Source: an uncultured Candidatus Saccharibacteria bacterium
GTDB taxonomy: Bacteria > Patescibacteriota > Saccharimonadia > Saccharimonadales > Saccharimonadaceae
Reading direction: 5' to 3'
Assembly (NCBI GenBank): GCA_946527885.1
Contig: CAMMYO010000004.1
Location: forward strand, 1 to 41,250
DNA: 41,250 nucleotides
Position numbers and translations under genes: made by a program. Shown here piece after piece: positions 1,666 through 26,585 of the stretch (position 1 is its first letter; every line of letters begins with the position of its first letter). The notes beneath the pieces are model-generated. The model saw nothing but the letters and a program-made list of their open reading frames with translations, searched no databases and was not told the DNA's origin.

Positions 1666-2445
1666 TTAATAAAGTTGATACATTCCTTTCGGAATCTTCA
1701 GTTTAGCCTCGCAGTAGGCCAATTCCATCAAAATAATCATTGCATCGCGCCCAGGAATTCCGCGCGTCCTGTCAAGCGTCGAAGCAAAAACGATGTCATG
1801 CGACCATTTACTTCCGATTTTCTTACTATACTTCTCATCAGACGACTTCTTACGATTCTTCTTGTTGTCGTAAATTTTCTTCGTAATTTTGGTCGGCTTT
1901 TTACCGCGAATGATGCGATAAATCAAACCCATCGGGAACTCAAACTTATCCGCCATGAAGCATGGGTTACCTTCTTCATTCTGAAAGGCCTCGAGATCCT
2001 CGAGATAAGCCCGCTGAAGTTCGAGCGGATAGCCGGCATAGCATTTCTTCGCGAACGCCAAACCGATTGCGTTCTTCTTTTCCTTGTCATAGCTGCCATC
2101 GGCAAGCATGTCACAACCTGTCGCAATTTCATCGTACTCGTGGTCAACGATCAACCGCACAACTCGACAATCGATTGGATATTGCTGCGGGCGGAGTACT
2201 GAGCACTCGAGATATATCTTCAGCATCATATAGGTATGGCACTGATCATTCTCGATTTGTCTCAGAAAGTGAACCCGCTCCCTGAACTTCTTCTGTTTCT
2301 TCGGATGCTTCTTACGGCAAACGTCGAGCCGAAGCGAATGATGACCTTTACGAATAATTTCGCGAAGCAGATAGCCCCGCTTGATATTGTCCCAAGCACA
2401 CATATACGGCACGAGCTCAGCTTCTGTCATTTGTTCAATCAGCAA
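1666..2445 (-). CDS. ORFan protein (start uncertain: TTG at 2445 or ATG at 2430)
   Basis: Long ORF; promoter TTGATT-N17-TATAAT (2494-2522) and GAAAGGGG SD lie inside the upstream part of the ORF-track call, so the true start must be downstream of them. Confidence 0.7.
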   Translation of the reverse strand: MLIEQMTEAELVPYMCAWDNIKRGYLLREIIRKGHHSLRLDVCRKKHPKKQKKFRERVHFLRQIENDQCHTYMMLKIYLECSVLRPQQYPIDCRVVRLIVDHEYDEIATGCDMLADGSYDKEKKNAIGLAFAKKCYAGYPLELQRAYLEDLEAFQNEEGNPCFMADKFEFPMGLIYRIIRGKKPTKITKKIYDNKKNRKKSSDEKYSKKIGSKWSHDIVFASTLDRTRGIPGRDAMIILMELAYCEAKLKIPKGMYQLY

Positions 2446-3709: not shown

Positions 3710-4222
3710 ATGGCACGCGCAAAATTAGATAAGCATTTTAGTTCAAAAGAAGCCGTCTGGCACTACGGTGCAGATGTTTTGGATTCCGAAATTTATAGCC
3801 AATGCGCCTGCTACATCCAGCACGGCAATACGAGCGTCCGCGAACATAGCATTTCGGTCGCCATGACCAGTGTTGCAATTGCGCGTCGCCTACCGTTCAA
3901 ATTCGCATACAGCTCGCTCGTTCGCGGCAGTCTTTTGCATGACTTTTTCCTGTACGACTGGCACGATAAGGAAAAGCCAATCGATAATCACGCCCTCGGG
4001 CACGCCAGTCGCGCGTTAGAGAACGCTGCGCAGTGGTTCTCAATCAACCCGCTTGAAGCAGATATGATCAAAAAGCACATGTTCCCATTGAACATAACGC
4101 CACCAAAGTATCGCGAAACGGTCATTCTGACCATCGCAGATAAAATCTGCAGCTTCAAAGAAACTTTCGAGATTGGTGCGCATCGCCACGAGCATAAAAC
4201 CATTAGCAATGTGCTAAAATAA
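3710..4222 (+). CDS. HD-domain phosphohydrolase-like protein
   Basis: REHSISVAMTSVAIARRL, LLHDFFLYDWHD, ALGHASRALENA. Confidence 0.75.
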   Translation: MARAKLDKHFSSKEAVWHYGADVLDSEIYSQCACYIQHGNTSVREHSISVAMTSVAIARRLPFKFAYSSLVRGSLLHDFFLYDWHDKEKPIDNHALGHASRALENAAQWFSINPLEADMIKKHMFPLNITPPKYRETVILTIADKICSFKETFEIGAHRHEHKTISNVLK

Positions 4223-7442: not shown

Positions 7443-7910
7443 CTAATCTTCAAGAATATCTAGACCGCCGAAAATATCGCAAGTCTTTTCCTTCGCCACC
7501 GACAGCGCTTTACGAAAATCAGCGATCCGCAAAATGCCTTCAAGCTTTAGCAGTACATCAGAACTCCCGCGCAAATCATAATCAACACCATCGAGCGAAA
7601 CAGTCACATTATTATAAGTCTGCGGATTAAAACCATCCCGACTAAAGCTACTAATATCTTCAAAATCACGCGCGCGAATCTTATCGAGATATCGCGGCAG
7701 AGCAATACAAGCATCTCCAGGAAGCTCAAAGCTACTATTTATCGAAACACTATCATTATGACGAAAAGTATTCGATTCTACACGAGCAAAACGCAATTCG
7801 GATGCGCAATTACAAATAATTCCATCAATAAAAAAGGAATATTCCTCAATATTGGCATCATCGGTGCTCGATTGATAAGTAATTCGAAAATTCGCTTTAA
7901 AATCTTCCAT
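7443..7910 (-). CDS. hypothetical protein, 155 aa
   Basis: ORF with AAAGGAGA SD upstream of ATG. Confidence 0.7.
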   Translation of the reverse strand: MEDFKANFRITYQSSTDDANIEEYSFFIDGIICNCASELRFARVESNTFRHNDSVSINSSFELPGDACIALPRYLDKIRARDFEDISSFSRDGFNPQTYNNVTVSLDGVDYDLRGSSDVLLKLEGILRIADFRKALSVAKEKTCDIFGGLDILED

Positions 7911-9268: not shown

Positions 9269-9841
9269 TTATTGTGGCAATTCAAAATTATCACTGCCAT
9301 TCTGAATCGCATCGACTAATTCGGCAGGCAACTCGTCCGCGCCCAATAAAGTATCGTGCTCAATCGAAACATAACCATCGATATCATAACCAGCTTGAAC
9401 CAATTCATCATTGCTAACCTCGCGAATCGCACCACGAATTCTCGTGTCAAAAATCTTGTTGTAATCAACGCCGTCCTCGACCTGAGCTAAAACTTTCAAA
9501 AAGATGTAGTCGCTATAACTAGCCGCACCATACTGCAGACCTTCGATTTTCGGACTGTCGCTATTGTAGGAAACGAAAGTCTTGCGACTTTTTACGACAT
9601 AATTGTGAAGATACAGCTTATGTTGAGCCAAATAGCGCACTACAACCGAGCGAATCTCGTCGTCATTCAAATAGCGATCCACTGACGTACTAACAAAACC
9701 GTAGCTCACCGGGTTCTTTGAGGTATCGTCATAAAATTCAATCGAACGCTCAACCGTATAGACGCTTCTACCATCAAGCTCAAAATTAATCGCCATACAC
9801 AGTGTCGTGCTTTTGTATTTGAAATCAATTGGCTCTTCCAT
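9269..9841 (-). CDS. hypothetical protein (MEEPIDFKYKS...)
   Basis: ORF; TACAAT 6 nt upstream of ATG at 9841. Confidence 0.65.
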   Translation of the reverse strand: MEEPIDFKYKSTTLCMAINFELDGRSVYTVERSIEFYDDTSKNPVSYGFVSTSVDRYLNDDEIRSVVVRYLAQHKLYLHNYVVKSRKTFVSYNSDSPKIEGLQYGAASYSDYIFLKVLAQVEDGVDYNKIFDTRIRGAIREVSNDELVQAGYDIDGYVSIEHDTLLGADELPAELVDAIQNGSDNFELPQ

Positions 9842-16218: not shown

Positions 16219-17715
16219 ATGGCATCAAAAACAACCAAACAGGTCAGCAAGCGTATTCATAAACTTGCATCAAAAGAAGAGCAGAAACCCGCAAGCACGG
16301 CGCGCTGCGTCGCGATTATTGCTTGTGCTACTCAATTAATTAGCAGTATCCTACTTTTCGTCGCTCTACGCCGACTAAATCTTTTGCAAACTTGGCAGCT
16401 AGTAATTGCCGCCCTCATCGTTTTGACTTTGCAATTTTTCAATTCAAAGCTCGCACTAAAACAGAAAAGACATCGCGCAGGCTACATTGCGTCAACGATT
16501 ATCGCCATTTTACTCTCGTGTTGCTATCTATGCGGCTATCATTACGCACGCCACACGACCGACTTCATTCAAGGCATCACGGGCGTACATTACGAGACGC
16601 AAACTTATTCCGTCCGCGTGCTCAAGACTAGCGGCTTTAACGAAATTTCGCAGCTACGCAATCAGCATGTCGGCTTCATGTCTACCAATCCAAATCTAGA
16701 AGACACTAAATCAAATCTCAAAGCCGCGGTAAACTACAAAGCGCAAGATTTCGACAATCTCGGCACGATGGTTTCGAGTATTTACGCATTCGAGACGGCC
16801 GCCATCGTTTTGAACGATAGCTACACCCAGTATATCGAAGAGACAGACAGCGAATTCGTGAACGATTCAAAGGTCATTTATACTTTTGAAGTGCGCAAGA
16901 TTTCCGATGACGAGCCGGTGCGCGTCGATGTGGCGAACAAGCCGTTCATCGTCTATCTCAGCGGCAGCGACTCACGTGGCACGATTAGCGACGTTGCTCG
17001 CAGCGACGTTAATATTGTTATGATTATCAATCCGCAAACTGGCAAAATCCTACTCGTAAACATTCCACGCGATTATTATGTGCAATTGCATGGTACGACC
17101 GGCCTTCGCGACAAGCTAACACATGCCGGTATTTACGGCGTAAATAAGAGCAAAACAACTATCGAAGATCTGCTCGGCATCGAAGTGAACTATACAGTCA
17201 AGGTCGGTTTCAATACCGTCATCAAGGTCGTTGATGCGATTGGAGGCATTGATATCTATTCAGATAAAGAGTTTACGGCATTCACGAATAAGACTTGTCA
17301 CTTTAAGTACGGCACCCAGCATGTTGATAGTACCTGTGCGCTCGCATTCTCGCGCGAACGCTATGCCTACGCCAGCGGCGATCGCCATCGTGGCGAGAAC
17401 CAACAGGCGGTCATTACGGCTATTATCAATAAGCTGTCAGATCCGAAGTACATGCTAAAGTATACGGATATTCTCAACGCCGCCGAAGGCTCGTTTGAAA
17501 CGAATCTGAGCTATGACGAAATCACCGGCTTTGCTAAGCAACAGCTATCCGAGCTCAAGCATTGGGAAGTCGAGTCTATCGCTCTCGATGGTACGGGCGC
17601 CAGCATGCCAACCTATAGTATGGGCTCGCAACGCCTTTATGTCATGGTTCCAAACCAAACTACCATTGATGCAGCCAAGGCAAAAATTGCCGAATATCTC
17701 AAAACCCCTCTTTAG
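16219..17715 (+). CDS. LytR-CpsA-Psr (LCP) family protein
   Basis: VYLSGSDSRGTISDVARSDVNIVMIINPQTGKILLVNIPRDYYVQL; ALAFSRERYAYASGDRHRGENQQAVI. Confidence 0.92.
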   Translation: MASKTTKQVSKRIHKLASKEEQKPASTARCVAIIACATQLISSILLFVALRRLNLLQTWQLVIAALIVLTLQFFNSKLALKQKRHRAGYIASTIIAILLSCCYLCGYHYARHTTDFIQGITGVHYETQTYSVRVLKTSGFNEISQLRNQHVGFMSTNPNLEDTKSNLKAAVNYKAQDFDNLGTMVSSIYAFETAAIVLNDSYTQYIEETDSEFVNDSKVIYTFEVRKISDDEPVRVDVANKPFIVYLSGSDSRGTISDVARSDVNIVMIINPQTGKILLVNIPRDYYVQLHGTTGLRDKLTHAGIYGVNKSKTTIEDLLGIEVNYTVKVGFNTVIKVVDAIGGIDIYSDKEFTAFTNKTCHFKYGTQHVDSTCALAFSRERYAYASGDRHRGENQQAVITAIINKLSDPKYMLKYTDILNAAEGSFETNLSYDEITGFAKQQLSELKHWEVESIALDGTGASMPTYSMGSQRLYVMVPNQTTIDAAKAKIAEYLKTPL

Positions 17716-17732
17716 TGCTCAAAAATCCGTCA

Positions 17733-18229
17733 CTTATGTAAATTGTCTAGGAAAAATTGACGATTTGTCTTTTCGTGGTTTCATTTTGCAACATATACCG
17801 AATACATCTCGTGCCGCCCAAAACTCAGCCCCATCTCAGATAAACATGCATACGTAATTATGCTTCATGATCGCCAGCCGCGCATAACCAAAACTGTCCA
17901 AAAAGCGCCGCGCCTTCGCATTTCGAACGTGAAGCGCAATGCTAGCCACTACTTTGGCAGAGTAAAAGCGCTCGTACGTGTGCCGGTTCGCACTATACGC
18001 TCTAGATATCCGTACGAAATACGCGCAATTCAGATTGCTCAGATGCGCGCTTCAGCTCTGCCGGCTAATATCCAAAATCTGCCGCGCCGCCTTACTAGAG
18101 AAATAAAAGTCATACATTATAAAAGAATAGAAAATTCCAACCAAAAACTAAATCATAAGCACAATTCTAGCAACAACACAATTCGCCAAAAAGACAAATC
18201 GTCAATTTTTGCTTTACTTTCTACATAAG
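17733..18229. mobile_element. MITE-like element A, TIRs CTTATGTA-N11-AAAAATTGACGATTTGTCTTTT
   Basis: 22-bp perfect inverted repeat 17752-17773 / 18189-18210 plus CTTATGTA / TACATAAG ends at the same distance. Confidence 0.7.
17836..18117 (-). pseudogene. GNAT-like ORF remnant with one in-frame TGA
   Basis: Minus-strand frame: MYDFYFSSKAARQILDISRQS*SAHLSNLNCAYFVRISRAYSANRHTYERFYSAKVVASIALHVRNAKARRFLDSFGYARLAIMKHNYVCMFI; TATAAT just upstream. Confidence 0.4.
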
Positions 18230-18386
18230 CAACAGAGAAAGAGTGCGAAACAAGCATTCCGCGCGCGATGCTAACACTTGCATTTTTGCGCAAAATGTGC
18301 TATAATCATTGAAGAATGTTATCAATTCTGTTGTTCGAGGCATATTTTTGGCGTACAACACATAAATTAAAGGGAAGAACAAGTTA

Positions 18387-19733
18387 ATGGAAGAAATCGA
18401 CATCAAAGATTTTCTTAATTATTTAAAGAAATTCGCCGTACCGGCAATTATTTTGGCGTCTCTTACGCTAATCGGAACGGTTATCTACGAAAGCTATTTT
18501 AAAACTAGTTTATACAAGAGCTACACTACCGTCGTGCTCGCGCAGAATGCTTCATCCGAAACTGGCACTACTACGCTTAACGATATCAATATCAACCAAA
18601 AGCTCATTGGTACTTATAGCGAGATTATTAAATCAAACACCATCCTAAACCAGGTGCGCGAAAGACTCGAACTCGATCAAAGCGCCGCCGAACTCGCCAA
18701 AAAGATCACCGTTACCGCCGTTGAAGACACGGAAATTATCAAAATCTCCGTCAATGACGAAGATAATGAGCTTGCTGCCAAAATCGCCAACGAAACCGCC
18801 GACGTCTTTACGAACGAAGTTCATAGCCGTTTTGGTCTCAATAACGCCACCGTCCTCGATACCGCAACACCAAGCTTGACTCCGAGCAACGATACTCGTC
18901 TTCGCGACTGCGCCGTCGCACTTCTTCTCTCGATTTTTGGCGTTATCGCCGTCGCTTTCATTATTTACTACTTCGACGACAGCGTAAAATATAGTGAAGA
19001 TCTTGAACAGCGCATCAAGATGCCAATCGCCGGTAAAGTTATCAAGAGCGAAATCAAGCAAAAACCTGGCCAAAGCGAAGTTTTGGTCGAAGCTTATCCA
19101 AAATCCGCCATCAGCGAAAGCATCAAGTCGCTCCGCACGAATCTACAATTTGCATCGGTCGACAACGGCTTCAAGACCCTTCTAATTACCAGCTCAACAC
19201 CAGGCGAAGGTAAAAGCTTTGTTGCTGCCAACCTTGCCGCATCGTTTGCCCAAACCGGCAAAAGGGTGCTTCTTGTTGATTGCGACTTGCGCAAAGGCCG
19301 CACACACAAAATGTTCTCCGTACCTAATACGCTCGGTCTGTCATACCTTTTGACCGAAACCGCCGATCAGTACAAGAAGTATGTTCAAAAGACTCAGATC
19401 AAGAATCTTAGCGTCATTACGCGCGGCGCATTCCCGCCAAACCCAAGCGAATTGCTCGCTTCGCAAAAGAACAAAGATCTTATCGAAGAGCTCAAAAAGC
19501 ATTACGATCTTATTATCTTCGATGGCGCACCATGCAATAGCGTAACCGACTCTGTCGTTATGTCTACCATTGTCGATCAAGTTCTCGTAGTCGCCCGCGA
19601 AGGCAAAACCCCACGCAGCGCGCTCGAATCTACCAAAGAGTCACTTGGCAAAATTAACGCTCCAGTTGCTGGCTTGGTTCTAAACGCCGTCAATAAGGGC
19701 GTCGCCAAGTACTACAGCTACTACGGTGAGTAA
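18387..19733 (+). CDS. fused Wzz chain-length determinant / bacterial tyrosine (BY) kinase
   Basis: Two TMs flanking a Wzz domain; LLITSSTPGEGKSFVAANLAASFAQTGKRVLLVDCDLRKGRTH; C-terminal Tyr cluster KYYSYYGE. Confidence 0.92.
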   Translation: MEEIDIKDFLNYLKKFAVPAIILASLTLIGTVIYESYFKTSLYKSYTTVVLAQNASSETGTTTLNDININQKLIGTYSEIIKSNTILNQVRERLELDQSAAELAKKITVTAVEDTEIIKISVNDEDNELAAKIANETADVFTNEVHSRFGLNNATVLDTATPSLTPSNDTRLRDCAVALLLSIFGVIAVAFIIYYFDDSVKYSEDLEQRIKMPIAGKVIKSEIKQKPGQSEVLVEAYPKSAISESIKSLRTNLQFASVDNGFKTLLITSSTPGEGKSFVAANLAASFAQTGKRVLLVDCDLRKGRTHKMFSVPNTLGLSYLLTETADQYKKYVQKTQIKNLSVITRGAFPPNPSELLASQKNKDLIEELKKHYDLIIFDGAPCNSVTDSVVMSTIVDQVLVVAREGKTPRSALESTKESLGKINAPVAGLVLNAVNKGVAKYYSYYGE

Positions 19734-19734
19734 A

Positions 19735-20442
19735 ATGATCGATTTACATTCACATATCCTGCCGGGGATTGATGATGGCGCCAAAACTTTTGACGACAGT
19801 CTCGAGATTTTGCGCGGTCTGGCTAGTCAGGGCATCACGGAAGTTGTTCTGACGCCACATTATGTTGTCGATACGAGCTATGTTAGTACGCGCAAGGCAA
19901 ATCAAAAAATCTTTGCCGAGTTACAAACCAAAATCAAACAAGCCAATATTCCAGTTCAAGTTTATCTAGCAAACGAAATCTACATCGATCGCGAGATCGA
20001 GAAACTCCTAAAGGCGGAGATTATTTCGCCAATTAACGACACAAAGAACATCTTGGTCGAGTTGCCAATGAGTGGCGAATTCCAAGATTACGAAGACATC
20101 TTGCTATCGCTCAAATATGCTGGCTGGAATGTGATTCTCGCACACCCAGAGCGCTACCATTCATTCCAGAAAAACTACAATTTGATTTTGTCGCTCGTTA
20201 ACCAAGGCATTCTTTTGCAATCTAATCTAGGCAGCATTATCGGTCAGTATGATAAGGAAGCCAAAAAGACCGTCAAGCACCTCGCAAAAGACAAGCTAAT
20301 TTATTGCTTTGGCACCGATATTCATCGCGTGCGCGACTTCTCAGAAATCGCTAAGGCGCAAAAGAAACTTCGCAAGTACTATTCCGAAGAAGAGCTCGAA
20401 GAAGTGCTAAATCGTAATCCACACAAAATCATTCACCCATAG
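19735..20442 (+). CDS. PHP-domain tyrosine-protein phosphatase (CpsB/YwqE type)
   Basis: MIDLHSHILPGIDDGAKTFDDSLEILRGLASQGITEVVLTPHY, NVILAHPERY, FGTDIHR. Confidence 0.9.
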   Translation: MIDLHSHILPGIDDGAKTFDDSLEILRGLASQGITEVVLTPHYVVDTSYVSTRKANQKIFAELQTKIKQANIPVQVYLANEIYIDREIEKLLKAEIISPINDTKNILVELPMSGEFQDYEDILLSLKYAGWNVILAHPERYHSFQKNYNLILSLVNQGILLQSNLGSIIGQYDKEAKKTVKHLAKDKLIYCFGTDIHRVRDFSEIAKAQKKLRKYYSEEELEEVLNRNPHKIIHP

Positions 20443-20476
20443 TCATAGCGCGCCATAAAATGTTAAAATTAAAGTA

Positions 20477-21178
20477 ATGTTTAAGACTTGGTGGCGCGAC
20501 TATAAATCCCTACTTGATACCGACCGACGCTGGATTGCGATTTGGTTGCTGACCTATTTTACATTTTTAATTTTGGACATCTTTTTTCCGGGTTTTCGCG
20601 GCTCCGCACTGTTGAAATATGCCGGGATTTTTTCGTGCATCGTTTACGCATATCAGCGCAGTCGCAAGGATGCCGCACTCATTTTGGCACTATTCCTGAC
20701 GTTTTTGGCCGACACCATACTCGTTTGGACAAATTGGGAAGTCTTCGGTGTTACAATTTTTAGTTTCGCGCAATTTATGCACATCTCGCGCCAAGCCGAC
20801 AAGCCGCCAAAGGCCATCCTAGGTTTTAGCATTGTTCTAATTCTTCTATATACTTTTGCCCGAATCGCCGGCTTCTCATCAATTTACGCCATCGGCATGA
20901 TTTACGCCACCGAGCTAATAATCAATGTCGGCCTGAGCGTGCAGCGATACAATAAGCACAAGCGCCAACTCAGCGCGCGCTGCGGTTTTTACGGTTTTCT
21001 TTGTTTTATCGCATGCGACACCTGTGTCGGTATCCGGCATCTGGCGCTAGACGGAGTTTTTACGCCAAAAGTGCTGGCGCTCGCGTCATTTTTGGTCTGG
21101 TTTTTTTACTTTCCGTCGCAAATCTTACTCGCCAACAGCTCGACCCTACCGTCAAAATTGCAAAATAAAACACGATAG
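20477..21178 (+). CDS. multi-TM membrane protein
   Basis: Repeated hydrophobic helices; TAAAAT 7 nt before ATG. Confidence 0.7.
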   Translation: MFKTWWRDYKSLLDTDRRWIAIWLLTYFTFLILDIFFPGFRGSALLKYAGIFSCIVYAYQRSRKDAALILALFLTFLADTILVWTNWEVFGVTIFSFAQFMHISRQADKPPKAILGFSIVLILLYTFARIAGFSSIYAIGMIYATELIINVGLSVQRYNKHKRQLSARCGFYGFLCFIACDTCVGIRHLALDGVFTPKVLALASFLVWFFYFPSQILLANSSTLPSKLQNKTR

Positions 21179-21192
21179 GTTACACTTTAGTT

Positions 21193-21696
21193 ATGAATGG
21201 GAAGTCAAAGCCTTACGCAATCTTAGTTTTCGGTGCGCCAATGAGCGGCAAAACCTATTTTTCGGAACAATTTAGCGAAAAATTCAACGCTCCTTACCTA
21301 AATCTTTCAGAACTTAACGAGCAATATCACGTCAGTCGCAAAGTTGGCTTAATTTTGATTTCCCAAATCGCAAAATGCAAGCAAACTCTTATCATCGAAG
21401 GCGCTATCGATACCGAAAAACAGCGCAACGAGGTCCGCGACCTGCTTTCTAAAGCCGGCTACACACCTGTCCTTATCTGGATTCAGACCGATTTGAATGC
21501 TATCAAGCAGCGCATGCGCCGAAAATACAAGACGCTCGAGGAGGCAAAAACTGCGCTCGCCGAATCTTATCAAAAAATCGAAGCGCCAGCCGAGCACGAA
21601 AATCCGCTCGTTATTTCGGGCAAACACATGTTCCAGACGCAATGCAAGAACGTGTTGCTCGGCCTCTCCGAACGCAAAATCGCTACTAAAAAATGA
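21193..21696 (+). CDS. P-loop kinase/AAA-type ATPase
   Basis: AILVFGAPMSGKTYFSEQFSEKF Walker A. Confidence 0.75.
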   Translation: MNGKSKPYAILVFGAPMSGKTYFSEQFSEKFNAPYLNLSELNEQYHVSRKVGLILISQIAKCKQTLIIEGAIDTEKQRNEVRDLLSKAGYTPVLIWIQTDLNAIKQRMRRKYKTLEEAKTALAESYQKIEAPAEHENPLVISGKHMFQTQCKNVLLGLSERKIATKK

Positions 21697-22238
21697 CCTT
21701 CAACGATCCAGAATTTGGCGAAGTAGTTGTTCGCCATAATGCCTGGGTGCGTGGCTATAAGATTTCCGTCGCAACTTCCGGCCATCTTACGATTACAGTT
21801 CCGCCAGGGATTGGCGTGTTTTTGGCGAAAAGATTTATCAATGCCTCACGAGAAGATATTCGCAATAAACTCGATATTAAGAACCCGTCCACGCAGCGCG
21901 CCCGCGATGCGCAGAAGAAGCTTTTGACGAAAAAAGCTCGCGAGTATCTACCGTATCGTCTCGAATTCTGGGCGCAAAAATTCGGCTATCAATACAGCGG
22001 CGTGCGCCTCTCGCATGCCAACACGCGTTGGGGTAGCCGCAGCTCAACTGGCACGATTTCGCTAAATATCGGGCTCATGAAGGTCCCTGAGCCGCTTCGC
22101 GATTATGTAATTTTACATGAACTTGCCCATATTAATCATATGGACCATTCAGCGGAATTCTGGGCCGAGGTCGGTTCGCACGACCCGAATTACAAGCGTC
22201 ACCGCGCCCAGCTAAAACAATTCTCGCCTGGCGTCTAA
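21693..22238 (+). CDS. YgjP-like/DUF45 M48-type metallopeptidase
   Basis: NTRWGSRSSTGTISLNIGLMKVPEPLRDYVILHELAHINHMDHSAEFW. Confidence 0.9.
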   Translation: MTFNDPEFGEVVVRHNAWVRGYKISVATSGHLTITVPPGIGVFLAKRFINASREDIRNKLDIKNPSTQRARDAQKKLLTKKAREYLPYRLEFWAQKFGYQYSGVRLSHANTRWGSRSSTGTISLNIGLMKVPEPLRDYVILHELAHINHMDHSAEFWAEVGSHDPNYKRHRAQLKQFSPGV

Positions 22239-22297
22239 CTCGCCAAGCCCCTAACAATAATCGATCGCTATTCATGCGCCCAAATTCGCAATTTTTG

Positions 22298-22494
22298 TTT
22301 ACGTAAACTAAAAATTTACACCACTACGCAATAACGGCGCTCGTGCGGTAAACTATTAATTTACGCTTCTTAGTGGGGGCTGCATCAGTAAACTAATTCT
22401 TTACCCACATAAGCCTAAAAATAGTCCGTAAATTATTAGTTTACGCCAAAAACAGAGATAGAAATTTAGGACGTAAAGCAATTCTTTACGTAAA
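22298..22494. repeat. mirror-symmetric array of five GTAAA-N7-TTTAC inverted repeats plus two outer half-sites
   Basis: Sites at 22303-22319, 22348-22364, 22388-22404, 22428-22444, 22473-22489; outer TTTAC 22298-22302 and GTAAA 22490-22494. Confidence 0.92.
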
Positions 22495-22517
22495 ACAAAA
22501 AAGCACGAAAATAGAAG

Positions 22518-22892
22518 TTAAAACTCGAGCTTCAAACTGACCGTAGTATCATAACCGTAGCGCGCCTTCGCCTCATAACCAGCCTTTTTCAAAGCCTCTT
22601 TTTCACTAGAAAGCAAAGTCTTTCCGCTATTTTTTATTGTCAAAATAACTTCACTAGCCGTCATCGACTCGGAAACGATAATATGATCCCCATCGCCGCA
22701 ACTCTGCAAACAGCGCTGAACCTGCGACTCGAAAAACCTATAAACCTTATCTAAATCCTTCTCGGCGATCCGCAAGGAAAGATGCGGAATATCCATTCCA
22801 ATCGAAATTCCGCGCTGCTCGCAAATACTAATCAGTTCCTGATAAAGTGAACTTACAATTTCGCCAATCGTTTTCGAGCCGTCGTCGCTCAT
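22518..22892 (-). CDS. small protein resembling a stand-alone HATPase_c (histidine-kinase ATPase-like) domain
   Basis: DLDKVYRFFESQVQRCLQSCGDGDHIIVSESMTASEVILTIKNSGKTL; start overlaps the GH97 stop by 4 bp. Confidence 0.5.
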   Translation of the reverse strand: MSDDGSKTIGEIVSSLYQELISICEQRGISIGMDIPHLSLRIAEKDLDKVYRFFESQVQRCLQSCGDGDHIIVSESMTASEVILTIKNSGKTLLSSEKEALKKAGYEAKARYGYDTTVSLKLEF

Positions 22893-24859
22893 GCCTTAAC
22901 AATCTCCATCGCAAAGCCGCCGCCTGGCGCCATATAAATCTCGACACGATCACCACGACGAAAAATCTTCTCCTCGATCACATAAGCCAATTGATTGTCG
23001 CGATAATGCGCATCTTCCGCATCGCGATATACTTTCGCACGATAGTTTACGCCTTCTTCCAAGAAATCGAGATACAACTCAACGCGGCGCCCCTCTTCAT
23101 TCGTCACGCCGCCAATATACCAATTTGGCGATTTCCATGCCTGGCGCGCAACTACATAACTCTTGCCAATCTCGCCAAACAGCGGCACCGTCTTTTCCCA
23201 AGACAAAGGCACATTCTTAATAAATTCAAACAAATCCGGATAATTCTCCTTATAGAAGCGCGGGCGATCCGCCGCCATCTGCATCGAAGAATAAATCGTC
23301 ACATAATACGCAACCTGGCGCGCAATCGTCGTAGCAATACGCTTCGTATAATTGCAAACATCAAAGATACCGCTCGTATAATCCATACCGCCAGCCAACA
23401 AACGCGTATACGGCAAGAAGCAAGCATGCGACGGCACCAAAGCACCACCTTCATATTCCTGACCGCGAGCACCTTCGCGCGTCATCAAATTCGGCCAAGT
23501 ACGCTCAATGCCTGTACTCTTAATCGGCTCGTGCACATCCAGCATAATATGATATTTCGCCGCCAACTCGAGCGCGCGCTGATAATGCAAAACACCCAAC
23601 TGCGAATGATGGAACTCGCGGTTACCATTAATAACCATGCGCGAACCAGCGTAACCGGACTTAATATAATGCACGCCATAGGATTGCAAATATTTATATG
23701 CATCTTCCATCTGCGAAACATAATTATCCACAAAACCAACCGTCTCATGGTGACCAATCAATTCAACACCATTTTCGCGGCAATAATCCGTGACTTCTTT
23801 AATATCGAAATCCGGCGTCGATACCATAAACTTATTGTTTACGCCATTCTGAAGCCAATCGCCTTCCCAACCGTCATTCCAGCCTTCAATCAAAAGACCG
23901 CGCAAACCGAGATCGCGACAATAATCGATATATTCCTTCGCGTGCTCGGTAGTCGCGCCATGACGATCACCAGGCGCCCAAGTCCATTCGCCGACAAACA
24001 TTGCCCACCAAATACCAAGGAATTTAATCGGTTTCACCCAGCTAAAGTCACCGCGCGGCGGCTCGTTCAAATTCAACATCATGCGGCTTGTCGTCAAATC
24101 AAGCGCGTCATTCTCAATAATCATCATGCGCCACGGCGTCGAGAAAGGCAGGGAAACATGCGCCCGCGTACCATCCGACAATGGCGTAATATCAGTCGAC
24201 AAAGCCACACGCTTATTCAACTTTACGGTCATCGAGCCATAGTTATAAAGCGCCGCCTCGTGCACCGCTACGTAGTGGCCAGCCGTCGTCAAAATCGTCA
24301 GCGGCGTATGTACTGATTCACGCAATTCATGCACGCGATGCTCATGATAATCATATTCGTAACGATCTGGCTGATAGGCAGGAATACTCCAAGAGCGCGA
24401 ATTTGTATCAAATGAAAACTCGGTCAACTCGTCCGTAATCGTAATTTTTTCCATCTCTGGCTGTGCCGGAATCTCGTAGCGGAACGCAACACCATCATCA
24501 TAGGCACGAAAGCGCAAAGTCAACAAGCGCGCCGGCTTTACTACCTCTTCGAGATAAATCGTCGTCTCATTGTAATTATTCCGAATAACACGCTCTTCGC
24601 CCCAATATGCTTCCCAAGTATTATCTACATGGCGATTATAAGCGCGAACCACGCACAAACCTTCACCAAGCGGCGCCAAATCCTGCAACTCGATGCCTAA
24701 CTTCGAGCGGCGAACAACAACTTTCTCGTCTTTACTGACGGCATAAAAAATCCGCCCATGATCCAAAATAAAAGATAAGGTTATACGGCCATTCGGCGAC
24801 TTGACTTCATAAATGGCATCCGTTTTTTGCTTTTTAAAAAGCCCACCCCAAAAACTCAC
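22889..24859 (-). CDS. GH97-family glycosidase (alpha-glucosidase/galactosidase-like), probable GTG start
   Basis: LRGLLIEGWNDGWEGDWLQNGVNNKFMVSTPDFDIKEVTDYCRENGVELIGHHET...YHIMLDVHEPIKSTGIERTWPNLMTREGARGQEYE. Confidence 0.88.
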   Translation of the reverse strand: MSFWGGLFKKQKTDAIYEVKSPNGRITLSFILDHGRIFYAVSKDEKVVVRRSKLGIELQDLAPLGEGLCVVRAYNRHVDNTWEAYWGEERVIRNNYNETTIYLEEVVKPARLLTLRFRAYDDGVAFRYEIPAQPEMEKITITDELTEFSFDTNSRSWSIPAYQPDRYEYDYHEHRVHELRESVHTPLTILTTAGHYVAVHEAALYNYGSMTVKLNKRVALSTDITPLSDGTRAHVSLPFSTPWRMMIIENDALDLTTSRMMLNLNEPPRGDFSWVKPIKFLGIWWAMFVGEWTWAPGDRHGATTEHAKEYIDYCRDLGLRGLLIEGWNDGWEGDWLQNGVNNKFMVSTPDFDIKEVTDYCRENGVELIGHHETVGFVDNYVSQMEDAYKYLQSYGVHYIKSGYAGSRMVINGNREFHHSQLGVLHYQRALELAAKYHIMLDVHEPIKSTGIERTWPNLMTREGARGQEYEGGALVPSHACFLPYTRLLAGGMDYTSGIFDVCNYTKRIATTIARQVAYYVTIYSSMQMAADRPRFYKENYPDLFEFIKNVPLSWEKTVPLFGEIGKSYVVARQAWKSPNWYIGGVTNEEGRRVELYLDFLEEGVNYRAKVYRDAEDAHYRDNQLAYVIEEKIFRRGDRVEIYMAPGGGFAMEIVKA

Positions 24860-26429: not shown

Positions 26430-26585
26430 CGTATGTAGTTTGTCAAACAAAAATTGACGTTTTGTCTATTTTGGAAAATATGTCACAATAGTCCACAGAG
26501 CCACATCGCAATATCTCAACGTCACGCTACAACACATTCTCACAGAAAGGAAAATCGTCAATTTTATCACGACATTCTGCATAAG
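26430..26585. mobile_element. MITE-like element B (156 bp), same TIR family as element A
   Basis: Left CGTATGTAGTTTGTCAAACAAAAATTGACGTTTTGTCT; right (rc) CTTATGCAGAATGTCGTGATAAAATTGACGATTTTCC. Confidence 0.6.

Follow-up and report, generated by a model that had tools for sequence, protein, structure and literature searches.

Introduction

REPIN-RAYT systems combine REP doublets with REP-associated tyrosine transposases (PMC3116915, PMC8049555). Correia elements are MITEs, that is, short intergenic inverted-repeat elements (PMC10969869), and stoperators are the repressor sites of cluster A mycobacteriophages, which are asymmetric and oriented with transcription (PMC9283540). Here we compare with these systems, and with parS/plasmid centromeres, an array of GTAAA-N7-TTTAC dyads from an uncultured Candidatus Saccharibacteria bacterium. 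The window, the whole 41,250-nt stretch that was analysed, makes up the entire contig C4 of a draft genome of 930 kb (G000; 52 contigs, 90.8% complete), and the comparison set comprised 45 genomes of the genus, with one genome per species. We consider it somewhat probable (about 0.55) that the window array represents a gene-less (solo) copy of a short element with inverted repeats, and that a small winged-helix protein binds its sites.

Results

The window array contains five perfect GTAAA-N7-TTTAC dyads, with steps of 45, 40, 40 and 45 bp between their starts. Its GTAAA half-sites begin at 22303, 22348, 22388, 22428, 22473 and 22490, the first five of which open the dyads, and its TTTAC half-sites at 22298, 22315, 22360, 22400, 22440 and 22485; reflection about 22396 converts the one list exactly into the other, and all 12 half-sites are mirror-placed. 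An earlier, sequence-only reading had reported the dyads, steps, outer half-sites and mirror placement, and every coordinate was confirmed exactly, as was the convergent setting between a YgjP-like metallopeptidase gene on the plus strand and a small 124-aa ORF on the minus strand. The five dyads in the window compare with 0.08 expected and were equalled in 0 of 100 shuffles, the array holds 12 half-sites per 197 bp against a window average of 0.55, and mirrored steps have a chance probability of about 8e-4 under uniform sampling of steps from 27 to 60 bp. No promoter-like site was found in the array, and positions 17500-23000 gave no Rfam match at E<=1. As a single strand, the array unit folds more stably than shuffled sequence (z -3.9) without forming one full-length hairpin.

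Table 1. Coordinates of the window array, of the second repeat family and of candidate winged-helix genes
Feature	Position	Strand	Remarks
Whole solo array	22298..22494	.	Five 17-bp dyads and two outer half-sites, mirror about 22396
Left end module	22298..22364	+	TTTAC + GTAAA-N7-TTTAC - N28 - GTAAA-N7-TTTAC, 45-bp step
Central dyad GTAAACTAATTCTTTAC	22388..22404	.	Optional from array to array
Right end module	22428..22494	-	Left module inverted, 45-bp step, outer GTAAA
Paralogous small winged-helix ORF	17839..18117	-	Candidate binder family, one in-frame TGA
Left inverted repeat, second gene-bearing element	17726..17773	+	48 nt, 81% complementary to right repeat
Right inverted repeat, second gene-bearing element	18189..18236	-	48 nt
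Gene-less copy of second family	26430..26585	.	Inverted CTTATG..GTCAA-N7-TTGAC..TTTGTC ends, another convergent gap
Second-family solo copies	L032 about 340-450; L034 about 3910-4045; L039 about 9280-9410; L040 about 1877-2030		
Candidate cognate gene	G000:C6:9347-9733		Between two GTAAA arrays
TGA-bearing winged-helix genes	L036:7848-8237; L145:4490-4882; window 17839-18117	+; -; -	Loci L259-L286

Exact dyads number 42 in the whole genome, against 4 for a reversed control motif, and 31 of the 42 sit in seven arrays on six contigs: in the window, after groEL on C2, twice on C6, and on C18, C23 and C34. The genes beside these same-letter arrays (groEL, infB, prfB-ftsE, ksgA and tlyA) are mutually unrelated. 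The arrays are all intergenic, convergent and co-directional gaps both being used, and all seven end in 45-bp steps with the pairs facing inward, although a few end sites are degenerate. The C2 array has steps of 45/40/40/45, exactly as in the window; inner spacings among the arrays are 37, 51, 40+40, 38+45+41 and 50+27+51, and the outer edges of most arrays show a T-run followed by TTTACGTAAA. Mirror symmetry is therefore not peculiar to the window array: each array has two 45-bp end modules in inverted orientation, and its symmetry results from them. The half-sites are nearly perfect and the gap sequences close to random, with a mean gap identity between copies of 0.30 against 0.26 for shuffled sequence, which leaves a slight residual similarity. 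The sequence-only reading had held that spacing rather than gap sequence is conserved, which agrees with these near-random gap letters, and we judge that it was right to predict a multi-protein DNA-binding array rather than an operator at the promoters of the neighbouring genes. Its remark that the steps lie near four helical turns fails in general, since the only invariant step is 45 bp, or 4.3 turns, and inner steps range over 27-51 bp. Next to the C2 array (L031, about 7520-7585), a sequence of about 31 bp (gagctgtggagattgtgggtttgcttggtg) is imperfectly duplicated in tandem.

Chance or an assembly artefact, for which the draft state of the genome in 52 contigs might speak, is excluded as the origin of the window array; against the shuffles, the seven same-step arrays on different contigs and five more in another assembly we give it practically no weight.

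That other assembly is the sister species G024. Among the 45 genomes, dyads with GTAAA letters are enriched only in these two, and arrays with such letters were found in none of the other 43, including G003, which is equally close (G000, G003 and G024 form a near-trichotomy). With up to three mismatches allowed, G000 contains 15 copies of the 45-bp end module and G024 nine, of which one is a chance-like single match with three mismatches; the module's reversed control occurs in neither, and elsewhere in the genus the module has at most one match. Ends in G024 read CTAGCAAAAmGGTAAACTnnnAATTACC-N28-GTAAACTnnnAGTTTAC, and gap identity between G024 copies is 0.36 against 0.28 for shuffled sequence, with one pair, of left ends, at 86%. 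Exact 45-bp pairs elsewhere, three unrelated single matches in GTDB genomes and five matches in IMG/VR, were set aside as chance.

In G003 and G024 the metallopeptidase gene and the gene next to it nearly abut, with no array between them; the window array is apparently an insertion, or else was lost in both. G003 likewise lacks an array after groEL. Array positions differ between species, and three of the five G024 arrays share a locus with G000 (rpsA-infB, prfB-ftsE and tlyA-DGK). Third codon positions of InfB differ by 0.41 and intergenic DNA is otherwise hardly alignable between the two, and no conservation of gap sequence was detected at the common loci. The sequence-only reading had named absence from close relatives and loss of the spacing as grounds for giving it up: the array is indeed missing from the window gap in relatives, yet its family is present in the sister species, where the 45-bp step is retained, partly at the same loci, and the inner steps are not fixed. 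Upstream of infB, the stretch holds different genes or no array depending on the species (L115, L117, L119, L128, L133, L139), and it is a possible insertion hot spot.

In most relatives examined, prfB and ftsE are separated by about 24 bp; the distance is 51 bp in G003 and reaches 857 and 937 bp in G000 and G024, in both of which the gap is filled by an array, an ORF and another array. The enclosed ORF (129 codons in G000, 130 in G024) is homologous between the two at 60% identity, carries one TGA, at codon 41, in each, and has its stop codon inside a half-site in both. Before the TGA dN is 0.27 and dS 1.25, and after it dN is 0.42 and dS 1.74; dN/dS is thus about 0.2 on each side, at a dS near saturation, a pattern that suggests that both parts are translated. 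Structure prediction yielded a winged helix that has additional helices (pLDDT 85); the PDB gave no fold match for it, and the protein has no Pfam match or known catalytic domain. Profile scores fell below the curated cut-offs for RhuM (15.1 bits vs 33.7), Bro-N (15.5 vs 25.6) and P22_AR_N (16.2 vs 30.7), with weak hints also to CI-repressor HTH domains and a weak HTH match to PDB 7r6r, the immunity repressor of a mycobacteriophage (E=0.034); searches of 50,697 phage records and of IMG/VR, at the sensitivity applied, recovered no relative. This ORF is most likely the cognate gene of the GTAAA sites, an assignment made by linkage because the paralogue in the window has repeats of its own. A gene of about 100 aa beside a lone dyad at C2:55367 was rejected as the binder: it is present in 39 of the 45 genomes irrespective of arrays, and it resembles the start of an IS transposase.

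The window paralogue belongs to a second element family and is not the cognate gene of the array at 22298. The complementarity of its flanking repeats exceeds the 95% control level. In the 207 kb of G000 that were sampled there are 11 occurrences of the repeat core of this family, TTGACGWTTTGTC (reversed control, 0), mostly as inverted pairs without a gene, in the window and on C2, C3, C18 and C20; the gene-less pairs number five and have GTCAA-N7-TTGAC-like ends. Most second-family ends contain GTMAA-N7-TTGAC, again of 5-N7-5 form, and the family repeats the plan of the GTAAA arrays with their winged-helix ORF.

The valS gap yielded separate observations. Between valS and a conserved gene of about 70-100 aa, many genus members (L197-L224) carry a parS-like TTTCACGTGAAA, with TTTCACATGAAA about 34 bp upstream. 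In G000 this gap contains a lone GTAAATTTTTAGTTTAC and one second-family end, and species-specific inverted-repeat arrays stand there in G043 (AACTGTAAA, L210:1953-2060) and G041 (AACTTATGA, L211:2037-2175).

A profile of the winged-helix family recovered 28 genes in 19 of the 45 genomes. No arrays were detected at most of the 28 loci, and differently lettered repeats stand beside some: two CTTGC-N7-GCAAG dyads 54 bp apart in G057 and G011 (degenerate in G049 and G014), GCAGATAGTAAAG arrays in G003, TAACGTTAA repeats in G018 and G010 and ACTCGCAAC repeats in G009, two of the letter sets retaining the 5-N7-5 form. Several of these links come from flanks read by eye and from few independent lineages. 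Repeated N7 dyads were present at 3 of 28 family-gene loci and at 0 of 138 background loci, a count that stands for few independent events because the CTTGC pairs of G057 and G011, with their degenerate counterparts, may be one inherited operator. The recognition helix ISRQNFY/ISKQNFY goes with GTAAA in G000, G024 and G003, and SESCL/DESCL with CTTGC; similar recognition helices are accompanied by similar site letters. An in-frame TGA is found in 15 of the 28 genes, frequently within the wing region that directly follows the HTH. There is no internal TAA or TAG in the 28, save TAA in four in which the profile match overruns the end of the frame, and elsewhere TGA serves as a normal stop codon, in 29 of 138 long ORFs. 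In contrast to the dispersal seen in G000, every clustered GCARATNGTAAAG array of G003 is on contig C8 or C9, and these two contigs match the window region on its two sides.

Discussion

The plan of these arrays is best read as that of a two-part system of REPIN/RAYT likeness, in which a winged-helix protein would take the place of the tyrosine transposase. As in REPIN-RAYT, two inverted end units surround a highly diverse spacer and are dispersed in extragenic space, gene-less copies exist beside a gene-linked one, and sequence groups are paired with specific proteins. In contrast, each end here is built from dyads with a constant 45-bp step, not from REP palindromes, the copies are few (under ten seen), and the protein, of about 130 aa, is by its model and lack of Pfam match a winged helix; we do not claim membership, because the protein is no tyrosine transposase.

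We propose that each element end is a pair of 17-bp 5-N7-5 dyads exactly 45 bp apart, and that two such ends are oriented towards one another, with a spacer of unconstrained sequence and length between them. The winged-helix protein is predicted to bind the sites, its dimers occupying the dyads and pairs of dimers being set by the 45-bp step, and the two inverted ends would be brought together in one complex; such pairing would account for fixed site positions with drifting gap letters. Gene-bearing copies would supply the protein and solo copies the sites, the element having inserted into gene-free gaps, presumably by transposition or copying, with help from the winged-helix protein or another enzyme. 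Site letters would change between species along with the recognition helix. The sequence-only reading had listed a recombination site among its options, which comes close to the mobile element favoured here. Several points count against such an element: the protein has no known catalytic domain or PDB fold match, no clear target-site duplication was seen, most of the 28 gene loci showed no array, and the near-unrelated gap sequences of G000 are unlike those of recent transposon copies.

The locus also resembles MITEs and Correia elements: the arrays are short, intergenic, bounded by inverted repeats with two sites per end, present in several non-coding copies, and absent from orthologous gaps of relatives, and ends in G024 have CTAGCAAAAmGGTAAACT in common. 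They could then be ordinary MITEs derived from a DDE or HUH transposon, the complete form of which has been lost or is missing from the assembly, the winged-helix ORF being a passenger or repressor. This is improbable, for no IS parent or transposase was found beside any array, and two families are each paired with a winged-helix ORF. In a genome 90.8% complete, such an ORF was the only gene seen between array-type ends. Copies hardly share internal sequence in the gaps of G000 and G024, whereas half-sites are kept perfect. Inspection of G000 by eye revealed no clear target-site duplication; TA/CTAG was weighed for the G024 ends but not established, CTAG being present there with conservation extending past it.

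Slightly better placed, though still doubtful, is a host-serving role, in which a chromosome-organising, insulating or silencing protein would bind dispersed arrays kept by selection, their element-like look reflecting past duplication. The common loci of G000 and G024, at the divergence given above, could reflect such selection, as could near-perfect half-sites between near-random gaps. Yet the GTAAA letters are absent from 43 genomes, G003 among them, positions vary between species, one array copy contains a gene, and the second family, with unrelated letters, has gene-less copies on the same plan. Still less probable is a captured phage-style repressor with dispersed transcription-stopping operators. 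Stoperators too are numerous and scattered through short intergenic spaces, all serving one HTH protein, and the RhuM, Bro-N, P22_AR_N and CI-repressor hints together with the weak HTH match to 7r6r would be the trace of homology; but phage relatives are lacking in the collections searched, the window array has no promoter-like site, and these arrays lie on a host chromosome as symmetric multi-dyad units independent of transcription direction, whereas stoperators are asymmetric and follow it (PMC9283540). With parS and plasmid centromeres the arrays share clustered sites for one protein at fixed spacing. The centromere, parS or replication locus put forward in the sequence-only reading is not favoured, because same-letter arrays are scattered over six contigs beside unrelated genes rather than clustered in one domain, and infB and the metallopeptidase gene lie 220-240 kb apart in the relatives G057 and G049. 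The protein family also differs, and the parS-like TTTCACGTGAAA occurs separately in the genus.

Extending the solo-copy reading to the genus is more tentative. It is possible that a two-part system, selfish or domesticated, exists there in which a winged-helix protein of about 130 aa keeps and spreads dyad arrays, each gene having a letter set specific to it, the recognition helix co-evolving with these letters between species and the TGA read through in about half of the genes. If true, this would be a minimal class of element, made up of a single small gene for a DNA-binding protein plus sites at strict spacing, in small genomes. It would also offer a natural series of proteins and sites (GTAAA, GTCAA, CTTGC and others, several of 5-N7-5 form) from which the co-evolution of recognition helix and target might be read directly, and it would raise the question of how an element moves without a recognisable transposase.
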